Assembly: GCA_021770445.1 (NCBI GenBank)
Contig: JAETQY010000002.1
Location: 62,001 to 126,000, forward strand
DNA length: 64,000 nt
From: Bacillota bacterium
GTDB lineage: Bacteria; Bacillota; Clostridia; Oscillospirales; Oscillospiraceae
Direction of reading: 5' to 3'
The notes under the pieces are model-generated. The model saw only the letters and a list, made by a program, of their open reading frames with translations, searched no databases and had not been told where the DNA came from. The translations under genes were made by a program, and so were the position numbers. This document shows, piece after piece, positions 2,912-49,000 of this stretch. The stretch's first letter is position 1. Each line of letters starts with the position of its first letter.

Positions 2912-3175
2912 ATGGATGACCTGACCCAATGCCTGTACGAATTTTTGCTGGACCGCCGCATGGGGAGCCTGTGGGAGAACGCGGAGTATAAAGCGTGTCT
3001 GTCCGCCGTGGTATCGTTGGAGGAACAGCTCAAATCCCACCTGAGCGAGGACCAGCAGGACCAGCTCGACCGCCTGATGGACAACATCCAGGAGCAGGGG
3101 TGCATCGAAAGGGAGCACCAGTTTCAGGCGGCGCTGGCGCTAATTCAAGAGCTGAACGCCCTCGTGCGGGCGTAA
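2912..3175 (+). CDS. Small hypothetical protein, DUF6809-like
   Basis: 87 aa MDDLTQCLYEFLLDRRMGSLWENAEYKAC...; SD ggaggtgtc. Confidence 0.65.
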   Translation: MDDLTQCLYEFLLDRRMGSLWENAEYKACLSAVVSLEEQLKSHLSEDQQDQLDRLMDNIQEQGCIEREHQFQAALALIQELNALVRA

Positions 3176-3316
3176 AGCCTTCCCCTTTAGGGGAAGGTGC
3201 CCCAGTGCGCACACTGGGGCGGATGAGGCCCTTACCGGAATTTCCCGCGGAACGCCTCATCCGTCATTTGCTCCGCGAGCTCCGCAAATGCCACCTTCCC
3301 CTAAAGGGGAAGGCTT
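3175..3316. repeat. Dispersed palindromic element, copy A
   Basis: AAGCCTTCCCCTTTAGGGGAAGGTG ... CACCTTCCCCTAAAGGGGAAGGCTT ends with internal hairpins; second copy at 45893-46025. Confidence 0.85.
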
Positions 3317-45397: not shown

Positions 45398-45883
45398 ATG
45401 TCAACCTGCACCTTCCGTCCCGCCGTCCCCGGCGACGAGGAATTGATATTGACCTTTATCCGCGCCCTAGCGGACTACGAGCACATGTCCGACCAGGTGG
45501 TGGCCACCCCGGAGATTTTGCGGGAGTGGCTCTTTGAGAAAAAGACGGCGGAGGTCATCTTTGCCGAGGCCGGGGAGAAAGCTGTGGGCTACGCCCTGTT
45601 TTTCCACAACTTCTCCACCTTCCTGGGCCGGGCGGGGGTCTATCTGGAGGACCTGTTCGTCCTGCCCGAGGAGCGGGGAAAGGGCTACGGAAAGGCGCTG
45701 CTCAAGGAGCTGGCCCGCATCGCCGTGGAGCGGGGCTGCGGCCGGCTGGAGTGGGCGTGTCTCGACTGGAACAAGCCCTCCATCGACTTCTACACCAAGA
45801 AGATGCACGCCGTCCCCATGGATGAGTGGACGGTGTACCGTCTCACCGGGGAGACCCTGGAAGAGGCGGCGAAGCCCGAGTAG
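45398..45883 (+). CDS. GNAT family N-acetyltransferase
   Basis: YLEDLFVLPEERGKGYGKALLKELARIAVERGCGRLEWACLDWNKPSIDFY. Confidence 0.92.
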   Translation: MSTCTFRPAVPGDEELILTFIRALADYEHMSDQVVATPEILREWLFEKKTAEVIFAEAGEKAVGYALFFHNFSTFLGRAGVYLEDLFVLPEERGKGYGKALLKELARIAVERGCGRLEWACLDWNKPSIDFYTKKMHAVPMDEWTVYRLTGETLEEAAKPE

Positions 45884-45892
45884 ACGCACCAA

Positions 45893-46025
45893 AAGCCTTC
45901 CCCTTTAGGGAAAGGTGCCCCAGTTCGCAAACTGGGGCGGATGAGGTCGTTTGGCGGAGTGTACCGGTTGTCGGCCTCATCCGTCACGGCTTCGCCGTGC
46001 CACCTTCCCCTGAAGGGGAAGGCTT
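45893..46025. repeat. Dispersed palindromic element, copy B
   Basis: Same arms as 3175-3316, with diverged hairpins. Confidence 0.85.
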
Positions 46026-46068: not shown

Positions 46069-49000
46069 ATGTCCTTTGTCCACTTACACCTGCATACGGA
46101 ATTTTCTCTGCTGGACGGCGCCTGCCGCATCAAGAAGCTGGTGGAGCGGGTGAAGGAGATGGGCCAGGAGGCGGTGGCCATCACCGACCACGGCTGCATG
46201 TACGGGGTGATCGACTTCTACCGGGCCTGCAAGGCGGCGGGAGTGAAGCCCGTCATCGGCTGTGAGGTCTACGTGGCCCCCCGGGGGCGGACCCGGTTCC
46301 AGAAGGTCCACGAGTTCGACTCCCGCTATAACCACCTGGTCCTGCTGTGCCGGAACGAGGAGGGCTACCGCAACCTCAGCTACATGGTGTCCAAGGGCTA
46401 TCTGGAGGGCTTTTACATCAAGCCCCGGATCGACCTGGACCTGCTCCGGGAGCACACCGGGGGGCTGATCGCCTGTTCCGCCTGTATGTCCGGGGAGATC
46501 TCCCGGCTGTTGCTGGCGGGGGACTACGACCAGGCCAAGGCGGTGGCCCTGGAGATGCGGGAGCTGTTCGGGGAGGACGGCTACTACCTGGAGCTCCAGG
46601 ACCACGGCATCCCCGCCCAGAAGCAGGTGAACGCCCAGATCGTTCGCCTGAGCCAGGAAACGGGCATCCCCCTCATCGCCACCAACGACGCCCACTACCT
46701 CCGCCGGGAGGACGCCGAGACCCAGGATATCCTCATGTGCATCCAGACGGGCAAGACCCTGGACGAGCCCGGCCGGATGCGCTTTGAGACGAGGGAATTT
46801 TTTGTCAAGTCGGAGGCGGAGATGGCCGCCCTGTTTCCGGAGCACCCAGAGGCCATCGAAAACACGGCCAAGATTGCCCAGCTGTGCAATGTGGAATTTG
46901 AGTTCGGTAAGTATCACCTGCCCCTGTTCCAGCTTCCCGAGGGCTGGACCGACGGGGAGGCATACTTCCGTAAGCTGTGTCTGGACGGCTTCGCCTGGCG
47001 CTACCCGGACCAGCCCCCGGAGTACCTGAAACAGCTCAACTACGAGATGGACATGATCCGCAAGATGGGCTTTGTGGACTACTTTTTGATCGTCTCCGAC
47101 TTCATCGGCTACGCCAAGGGCCAGGGTATCCCGGTGGGGCCGGGCCGGGGCTCGGCGGCGGGGTCCATGGTGGCCTACTGCCTGAACATCACCGACGTGG
47201 ACCCCATGGAGTACGGGCTGTACTTCGAGCGCTTCCTCAACCCGGAGCGGGTATCCATGCCTGATATCGACATCGACTTCTGCCCCCGTCGCCGGCAGGA
47301 GGTCATCGACTACGTCAAGCGCAAGTATGGCGAGGACCACGTGGCCCAGATCGTCACCTTCGGCACCATGGCCGCCCGGGGCTCCGTCCGGGACGTGGGG
47401 CGGGTGATGGGGGTGCCCTACGGGGAGGTGGACGCCCTGGCCAAGCTGATTCCCAGCGGCCCAGGGGCGCTGCACATTACCCTGGAGGAGTCCCTCAAGC
47501 TGTCCAAGCAGCTGAAGGATGCCTACGACGAGAACCCCGCCACCAAAAAGCTGATCGACACCGCTATGGCCATCGAGGGGATGCCCCGGAACACCTCCAC
47601 CCACGCCGCCGGGGTAGTGATTACCCGCCGGCCGGTGGTGGACTACGTCCCCCTGGCCGCCAACGACGGCCAGCCGGTGACCCAGTACGTCATGACCACC
47701 CTGGAGGAGCTGGGGCTTCTCAAGATGGACTTTCTGGGCCTGCGCAACCTCACCGTCCTGGACGACGCGGCTAAGATGGTGCAGAAGAAGGAGCCCGGCT
47801 TTACCATCGATGCCATCCCGGAAAACGACCCGGCCACCATGGCCATGCTGGCCGAGGGCAAGACCTCCGGCGTGTTCCAACTGGAGTCTGCCGGTATGAC
47901 CGGTGTGTGCGTGGGGCTGAAGCCCAAGAATATTGAGGATATCTGCGCGGTGATCGCCCTGTACCGGCCCGGACCCATGGACTCCATCCCTAAATTCCTG
48001 GCCTGCGCCCAGGACCCGGCCAAGGTGACCTACAAGGACCCCTCCCTGGTGCCCATCCTGTCCGGGACCTACGGGTGTATCGTCTATCAGGAGCAAGTGA
48101 TCCGCATCTTCCAGGACCTGGCGGGCTACTCCCTGGGTCAGGCGGACATGGTGCGCCGGGCCATGAGCAAGAAGAAGGTCAAGGAGATCGAGAAGGAGCG
48201 GGAGGCCTTCCTCCACGGCGACCCCGCCCGGAACATCCCCGGCTGCGTGGCCAACGGGGTGCCCGAGGAGGCGGCTCAGGCCATCTACGACGAGATGTAC
48301 GACTTCGCCGAGTACGCCTTCAACAAGTCCCACTCCCTGGTCTACGCCATCGTGTGCTACCAGACGGCCTGGTTCAAGTGCCACCACCCCAGGGAGTACA
48401 TGGCTGCCCTGCTCACCTCGGTGCTGGACTCCACCGAGAAGGTGGCCGAGTACATCGCCGAGTGTCGGGAGATGGGCATCAAACTGCTGCCCCCCGATGT
48501 GAACCAGTCCGGGGCGGACTTCACCGTGGTGGAGGAGGGCATCCGCTTCGGCCTGGTGGCCCTGAAGGGGGTGGGGCGGTCCTTCATCGCCAACCTGCTG
48601 TCCGAGCGGGAGAAAAACGGCCCCTTCGCCGATTTTATGGACTTCTGCGACCGGCTCTTCGACCAGGACATGAACCGGCGGATGGTGGAGAGCCTCATCA
48701 AGAGTGGGGCCTTCGACACCATGGGCTGCCGCCGGTCCCAGCTGATGCAGGTCTACGGCCAGGTGCTGGACGGCATCGCCGCCGCCCGGAAGCGGAACGT
48801 GGAGGGACAGCTGGACCTGTTCGGCTTTGGGGGCGGGGAGGAGGAGAACGCGCCTCTGCCCAACCTGGTCCTGCCCGACCTGCCCGAATACACCCCCCAG
48901 GAGCTGATGACCATGGAGAAGGAGACGACCGGCCTCTACCTGTCCGGCCACCCCATGGACCAGTACCGAGAGCTGGCAAAGCAGCTCGGGGCGGTGACCA

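Follow-up and report, generated by a model that had tools for sequence, protein, structure and literature searches.

The two palindromes of the window, i.e., of the whole 64,000-nt stretch of DNA that was analyzed, are, with a probability of roughly 70%, non-autonomous members of a mobile family of hairpin repeats that is moved by the DUF559 nuclease bracketed by such repeats. The best reading of this system is that of a REP/REPtron-like one in which an EDxHD homing-type nuclease replaces the HuH transposase. DUF559 is a widespread domain whose biological role in these organisms is unassigned; if this reading is true, it would drive the movement of one of the most common repeats in gut Clostridia. 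It would also imply that a homing-endonuclease fold took over the transposition of hairpin repeats, adding an enzyme chemistry for the movement of bacterial DNA, and it would account for the abundant intergenic palindromes in genomes that lack RAYT. No paper connecting DUF559 or EDxHD nucleases with palindromic repeats was found in the open-access literature, and the pairing of a hairpin repeat with a DUF559 nuclease appears to be undescribed so far.

Architecture and mobility of the repeats

Both palindromes reported in the initial annotation are present, with the arms and stems described there (Table 1). Copy 1 possesses perfect outer inverted arms of 25 bp (AAGCCTTCCCCTTTAGGGGAAGGTG / CACCTTCCCCTAAAGGGGAAGGCTT), the inner arms GGATGAGG/CCTCATCC, and the stems GCCCCAGTG-cgca-CACTGGGGC and CATTTGC..GCAAATG; its first A is the final base of the TAA stop codon (3173-3175) of the upstream gene. 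Copy 2 is located between a GNAT-like gene (stop codon at 45881-45883) and dnaE (start at 46070) and shares this plan, with the stems GCCCCAGTT-cgca-AACTGGGGC and CACGGC-ttc-GCCGTG, one mismatch in the left arm (GGGAAAGG), and the loop TGAA on the right. The 142-bp palindrome consists of two inverted monomers of about 50 nt, each comprising, from the outside to the inside, AAG, the hairpin H1 (CCTTCCCC-TTTA-GGGGAAGG), TG, a variable hairpin H2, and the tail GGATGAGG. The differences between the two copies consist largely in the exchange of entire H2 hairpins and less in single compensated substitutions.

Table 1. Positions of the two palindromes and of their parts in the window
Feature	Position	Strand	Evidence
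Copy 1, head-to-head dimer of two type-A monomers, ends AAGCC/GGCTT	3175..3316		Sequence; fold z -11; orthologous site empty in G035
Copy 1, terminal hairpin H1, CCTTCCCC-TTTA-GGGGAAGG	3178..3197	+	Sequence; fold
Copy 1, second, variable hairpin H2, GCCCCAGTG-CGCA-CACTGGGGC	3199..3220	+	Sequence; H2 covariation
Copy 1, tail GGATGAGG, type A	3221..3228	+	Sequence; H1-end/tail pairing rule
Copy 1, central spacer, 26 nt, different from that of copy 2	3229..3254		Sequence
Copy 1, tail of second monomer (CCTCATCC on the + strand)	3255..3262	-	Sequence
Copy 1, H2 of second monomer, CATTTGC..GCAAATG	3265..3290	-	Sequence; fold
Copy 1, H1 of second monomer	3294..3313	-	Sequence
Copy 2, head-to-head type-A dimer	45893..46025		Sequence; fold z -10; site in relatives holds other elements or plain hairpins
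Copy 2, left H1	45896..45915	+	Sequence
Copy 2, H2, GCCCCAGTT-CGCA-AACTGGGGC, G-C to T-A change relative to copy 1	45917..45938	+	Sequence
Copy 2, tail GGATGAGG	45939..45946	+	Sequence
Copy 2, tail of second monomer	45975..45982	-	Sequence
Copy 2, H2 of second monomer, CACGGC-GAA-GCCGTG on the minus strand, GNA loop	45985..45999	-	Sequence; loop statistics
Copy 2, H1 of second monomer	46003..46022	-	Sequence

The tail of the family has the consensus [G/T]GATGAGG and is located 3' of the second hairpin. In type-A monomers, H1 ends with ..AAGG and the tail is GGATGAGG, and in type-B monomers, H1 ends with ..AAGC and the tail is TGATGAGG. An H1 end of GG was combined with a GGA tail in 269 cases and one of GC with a TGA tail in 48 cases; this rule was obeyed in 317 of 318 cases, with a single exception. 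Monomers occur singly, head to head (as in both window copies), or tail to tail. In the genome of the window (G000; 2.64 Mb, 94.5% complete), head-to-head spacers form classes of 0-1, 28, and 52 nt, and tail-to-tail spacers measure 21-23 or 38-39 nt. These discrete spacings and the swappable halves of the monomer pairs are a likeness to BIMEs. Genome-wide copy counts, which derive from BLAST and pattern tallies, amount in this genome to 78 BLAST pieces, about 30 places with monomers, and 28 occurrences of a strict pattern. The same pattern was detected in 74 of the 394 genomes of the order Oscillospirales, representing 50 genera, at up to 82 copies per genome, and the reversed control pattern had no match in any of the 394 genomes. 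The exact pattern also has matches in public genomes, among them those of Pseudoflavonifractor, Flintibacter, and Lawsonibacter.

Some variants of this design were noticed. In tail-to-tail pairs (e.g., L052 2137-2159, L056, and L057), the linker of 21-23 nt is partly conserved and palindromic, reading about CTTTGGGATGCGTATCCTTTG. A related element in the genome of the window (L055 1980-2150; G000:C19:226500) has other end hairpins (CCTCC..GGAGG), the tail GGAGGATTGTA, and an extra module, TATTTCGCCGCAAGCGAAATGTGCGGAGCAAAC, that is also found after type-B tails at four loci (L043, L046, L051, and L052).

The hairpin repeats are mobile. The site of copy 1 is empty in the sister species G035, where the two convergent genes abut. 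The site of copy 2 is occupied by the same family with a different spacer in G029, by a different subfamily with the tails TGGGGG and GGTGGAGGG in G009 and G033, and solely by a plain terminator-like hairpin in G035 and G014. The gap between groES and groEL contains an element in G000 and is empty in G016, G033, and G020. The initial annotation had set a selected fold against a mere mobile repeat, a contrast that is refuted by these empty and differently filled orthologous sites, and the conserved fold is best explained as the feature that the mobility machinery recognizes. The groES-groEL gap of G009, G035, and G029 (L289, L290, and L292) is occupied by palindromes of an unrelated family whose ends read TGTAGGGGCGG..CCGCCCCTACA. 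Phages were rejected as carriers (10 contigs of the 2.9 million in viral_contigs).

The DUF559 nuclease, its cassettes, and their target sites

DUF559 is the sole protein that was repeatedly found between monomers. Long head-to-head spacings mostly contained other repeats, and DUF559 genes were present in two of them, from two unrelated genomes; in G010 (L075 1160-2010), an HTH gene together with a small ORF, and no DUF559, lies inside a head-to-head pair of a CCCCC-stem subfamily. The domain (PF04480) was identified in 121 of the 394 genomes, and its co-occurrence with the repeats corresponds to an odds ratio of 7.3 (p = 3e-13, uncorrected for phylogeny); among the genomes with at least 10 repeat copies, 21 of 24 possess it. 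A strict structural search placed a monomer within 260 bp of 24 of the 41 DUF559 genes, on both sides in 10 of these cases, and more were recognized by eye. Near DUF559 genes, 42 monomers were counted in about 21 kb vs. 4 in 82 kb of distal flank of the same loci, corresponding to a density about 40 times higher. Same-type DUF559 genes are usually single-copy, and the cassette itself seldom multiplies; in the GATGAGG-type cassette of G000, the left monomer is missing.

Other DUF559 lineages are accompanied by related monomers with the tails GAGGGATTGT, GAGGGAG, GAGAGGG, TGGGGG, and GGGG-TGG. Where tails were present on both sides of a DUF559 gene, their class agreed in 42 of 50 genes; the margins alone would give about 12. 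A tree of 99 nucleases was derived from 109 columns and has many open forks, so that its clustering is trusted and its single branches are not. The tail class requires 13 changes on it, compared to a mean of 42.7 after shuffling, and none of 200 shuffles was as low. For the host family, 41 changes are needed on this tree, and at least 30 remained in every shuffle of tails within host families. Since the tails track the nuclease tree and not the host family, these comparisons of sequences show joint inheritance of nuclease and repeat type across host families. If DUF559 moves the repeats, the several tail types, each with its own nuclease lineage, would form a matched enzyme-site set. Divergent DUF559 proteins elsewhere in the phylum, many of them in frames of 1,000-1,900 aa or without hairpins, had no monomer flanks, and bracketing is thus a property of this nuclease clade; two standalone DUF559 cassettes outside the order (L383 and L384) are bracketed by monomers. 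At three loci upstream of rnhA (L229, L244, and L199), the DUF559 frame remains open through the downstream monomer into rnhA, resulting in a predicted DUF559-RNase H frame in which the repeat would be translated in between.

The nuclease has about 120 aa, with E24, D51, E62, D64, H68, D77, R80, R93, and N96 being invariant (alignment numbering). Profile matches were obtained to the N. gonorrhoeae endonuclease-like protein 3hrl (E value, 8e-22) and to the catalytic domain of I-Bth0305I, 3r3p (E value, 6e-4). The same two structures were the first fold matches of an AF2 model of moderate confidence (mean pLDDT, 67; core, 84-92), with TM scores of 0.55-0.79 to both, and Vsr scored lower. Sequence match, predicted-fold match, and the invariant acidic and His residues point alike to an EDxHD/Vsr-like catalytic fold. 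Pairwise dN/dS values among the nucleases are mostly 0.03-0.2, and this purifying selection indicates a function. EDxHD is a recognized homing family, and I-Bth0305I forms dimers on its target, which spans nearly 60 bp (PMC3943268); a cyanobacterial DUF559 gene in an intein context has been classed with the EDxHD homing endonucleases (PMC9403480).

Cassettes are associated with long target duplications, measuring 39 bp (L226), 45 bp (L362), and 56 bp (L262), as well as about 36 bp at the 3' end of cysS (L044 in G000, and L188). Some direct repeats were obtained in control windows as well (4 of 92, compared to 16 of 99). At the site of L226, the cassette is absent in G064 and G101, and the 39-bp stretch occurs once in G101. 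The site of L362, a cassette of the GAGAGGG family in G314, is empty in its congeners G433, G428, G440, G429, and G439. In a sixth congener, G438, a lone, nuclease-free monomer of the GAGAGGG type is present at the gene end that holds the cassette in G314, accompanied by a duplication of roughly 72 bp and arranged as target-monomer-target-monomer-target. Monomer and same-family cassette have therefore settled at one target, and long duplications also arise with the nuclease-free form. Among the targets are several gene 3' ends, and many different gene ends are used; the inserted element provides the stop codon at L362 (GATAGATAAGCC), copy 1 (GCGTAAAGCC), and L050 (CAATAAGCC). For the short copies of G000, G029, and G010 (47 elements), no target duplication beyond the control was detected (mean score, 6.7 vs. 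6.8); in G000, this may reflect old age of the copies or a different mode of entry for dimers.

These associations could also arise if another enzyme or host repair moved the hairpins and DUF559 were passenger cargo, for example, a defence or self-preserving nuclease. Such a scenario would be in line with the 24 of 74 pattern-bearing genomes for which no DUF559 was detectable, including the well-assembled G050 (20 copies) and G038 (11 copies), with other small genes between monomers such as those at L075, and with other palindromic families that also lie between duplicated gene ends and in which no nuclease was seen. However, the same tail type on both sides, tracked across host families, is unexpected of a passenger, DUF559 alone recurs between monomers, and the nuclease is under strong purifying selection and is kin to a homing endonuclease. 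We consider a passenger role unlikely.

Appreciably less probable is the possibility that selection retains the hairpins for transcription termination or for stabilizing mRNA 3' ends and that their spread is incidental. The start of many copies coincides with a stop codon (copy 1, L050, L040, and L057), a T run often follows H1, and, as mentioned above, plain terminator-like hairpins are present at the copy 2 site in G035 and G014; statistics on the distance to stop codons were left out of the evidence, because a simple ORF caller is unreliable in GC-rich DNA. Yet terminator-like sites were not called in copy 1, and a single weak one (minus strand) was called in copy 2, copies are present inside the co-transcribed groES-groEL, and a terminator function leaves unexplained the covarying H2 and strand-polar loops described below, the tail, and the link to the nuclease. 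Termination may still be a secondary benefit.

Folding, covariation, and loop polarity

The single-strand fold of copy 1 has an energy of -58.1 kcal/mol (shuffle mean, -24.2; z, -11.0) and that of copy 2 of -52.7 kcal/mol (shuffle mean, -22.5; z, -10.0), and no shuffle equals either of them; the z-scores of dimers against dinucleotide shuffles were -11.0, -11.2, and -10.0. The compensatory change noted in the initial annotation is real, as all six pairs of H2 vary on both sides in 24 equal-length hairpins from many genomes. The covariation score of H2 is 0.559, compared to 0.158 for shuffled data and at most 0.10 for slid registers, by which non-covarying stems are excluded. A perfect H2 stem directly before the tail is present in 277 of the 394 monomer candidates (33 when shuffled), with 69 different stems; these monomer and stem counts, like the loop counts below, are descriptive, since copies within one genome are non-independent. 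The proposal that the fold is kept is thus borne out by H2 covariation, perfect stems before the tail, and the fold z-scores. The H2 of the copies in G333 and G352 has the recurrent form CCGAGC-NNN-GCGAGG, which pairs only when tandem G-A mismatches are allowed.

The loops of H2 are strand-polar. Among the triloops read on the tail strand, 101 of 121 are C-GNA-G and one is the complementary TNC, whereas background triloop hairpins are balanced (22 vs. 20 of 381); four-base H2 loops comprise 148 of the form G..A vs. 2 of the form T..C. In DNA, mini-hairpins with GNA or GNNA loops and closing G-C pairs are of extraordinary stability (PMC4686876, citing Hirao and Yoshizawa). Because the C-GNA-G loops are confined to one strand, we infer that the selected form is probably single-stranded DNA and not RNA or a symmetric cruciform. 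Since GNA triloops are found in RNA as well, this argument is indirect. Selection on the fold, as proposed initially, is supported, and an RNA form is less likely than single-stranded DNA given the strand-polar GNA loops. If so, covarying stems in genomes can be a reflection of DNA, and not of RNA, structure.

It is very improbable that the palindromes represent a structured non-coding RNA or riboregulator that has multiplied by duplication. Their covariation and low folding energy would agree with such an RNA, but no Rfam 15 family matches the palindromes at the gathering threshold, gene context is not fixed, copies are found in both orientations beside genes, and the loops follow the tail strand in their polarity and belong to the GNA type that is stable in DNA. 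Known RNAs were discarded after a relaxed Rfam search, which gave weak matches to miRNA precursors only, as expected of any long hairpin. Elsewhere in the window, a malK-I RNA (RF03069; 28999-29181, plus strand) and an FMN riboswitch (RF00050; 51845-51969, minus strand) were identified, both well over the Rfam gathering score.

Relation to known systems and proposed mechanism

The elements have a similar look to REP sequences moved by a RAYT (HuH tyrosine) transposase, which likewise are intergenic palindromes of high copy number that form inverted pairs and carry a short tag (PMC3733652, PMC6006769), and RAYT-like genes exist in some relatives, e.g., G029. REPtrons consist of a usually single-copy TnpA_REP (RAYT) gene flanked by its own repeats, with a lineage-specific repeat for each enzyme (PMC6006769). 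REP/BIME and REPtron systems and the present one have in common short tagged intergenic palindromes, inverted pairs, and typical spacings, and the REPtron layout recurs here as a single nuclease gene flanked by its own repeats, with DUF559 in the place of TnpA_REP. Membership in the REP/RAYT group, however, fails on enzyme and tag. An EDxHD/Vsr-like metal-dependent nuclease is found here and a HuH tyrosine transposase there; two hairpins with a 3' tag (GATGAGG, GAGGGATTGT, GAGAGGG, and others) contrast with GTAG/CGTC 5' of one hairpin, a tag that is absent from the present repeats; and target duplications of 36-72 bp are a further difference. No match to a Y1/RAYT transposase (PF01797) was detected in G000, G010, G039, and G050, all of which have many copies. 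A RAYT/Y1 mobilizer, for which 60 relatives were searched, was rejected, being absent from G000 and several other high-copy genomes and having no repeats nearby where such genes were found. Movement by RAYT is thereby the least probable of the explanations considered. In a comparison made outside repeat libraries such as ISfinder, the palindromes matched neither a known family of transposon ends nor a known REP family. One RAYT-like gene, coding for 248 aa with an HIH motif, was noted in the repeat-rich relative G029 (L092 1057-1803), with none of these repeats nearby.

EDxHD homing endonucleases such as I-Bth0305I and free-standing homing genes resemble the DUF559 system in their homologous nuclease domain, in selfish spread into defined sites, and in a very long target (PMC3943268). 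The free-standing DUF559 cassette differs in that it lies outside an intron or intein and hits many gene ends, that its protein of about 120 aa showed no NUMOD-type DNA-binding tail, and that terminal hairpin repeats, target duplications, and abundant nuclease-free derivatives occur here. IS200/IS605 elements and their palindromic derivatives are similar with respect to subterminal hairpins at both ends and the probable recognition of single-stranded DNA. IS200/IS605 inserts without target duplication, whereas duplications are made here, and no Y1 transposase was detected in the four high-copy genomes named above. The short gene-free inverted-repeat elements known as DDE MITEs and Correia elements are likewise of high copy number, but the ends of the present elements are themselves hairpins with a covarying inner stem. 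DDE elements generate target duplications of 2-14 bp, compared to 36-56 bp for the cassettes, and the partner gene identified here, DUF559, is not a DDE transposase. At slightly less than even odds, the DUF559 system would form a separate class of transposable elements, with a ~120-aa EDxHD (DUF559) nuclease as its sole protein, folded single-stranded hairpins, gene 3' ends as targets, duplications of 36-72 bp, and thousands of nuclease-free repeats in Clostridia.

According to the mechanism proposed, the transposing unit would be the monomer of about 50 nt, with its two hairpins and short 3' tail, either alone or as an inverted pair. DUF559 would be supplied by single-copy cassettes with monomers of one and the same tail type on either side, and monomers would be mobilized in trans. 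The enzyme would recognize the folded monomer, probably as single-stranded DNA, via H2 and tail, and would cut or nick both the repeat (donor) and the target, which often would be a gene 3' end. Monomer or cassette would then be inserted, and the filling in of staggered nicks tens of bases apart would leave the 36-72-bp target duplication, restoring the end of the target gene. Palindromes of other families are also present between gene-3'-end duplications of 58-71 bp, namely, in groES of G027 (L293 427-484), rnhA (L199 2386-2448), and a uvrB-like gene (L097 1006-1076), and long gene-end duplication may be common to several families of hairpin elements in these genomes.
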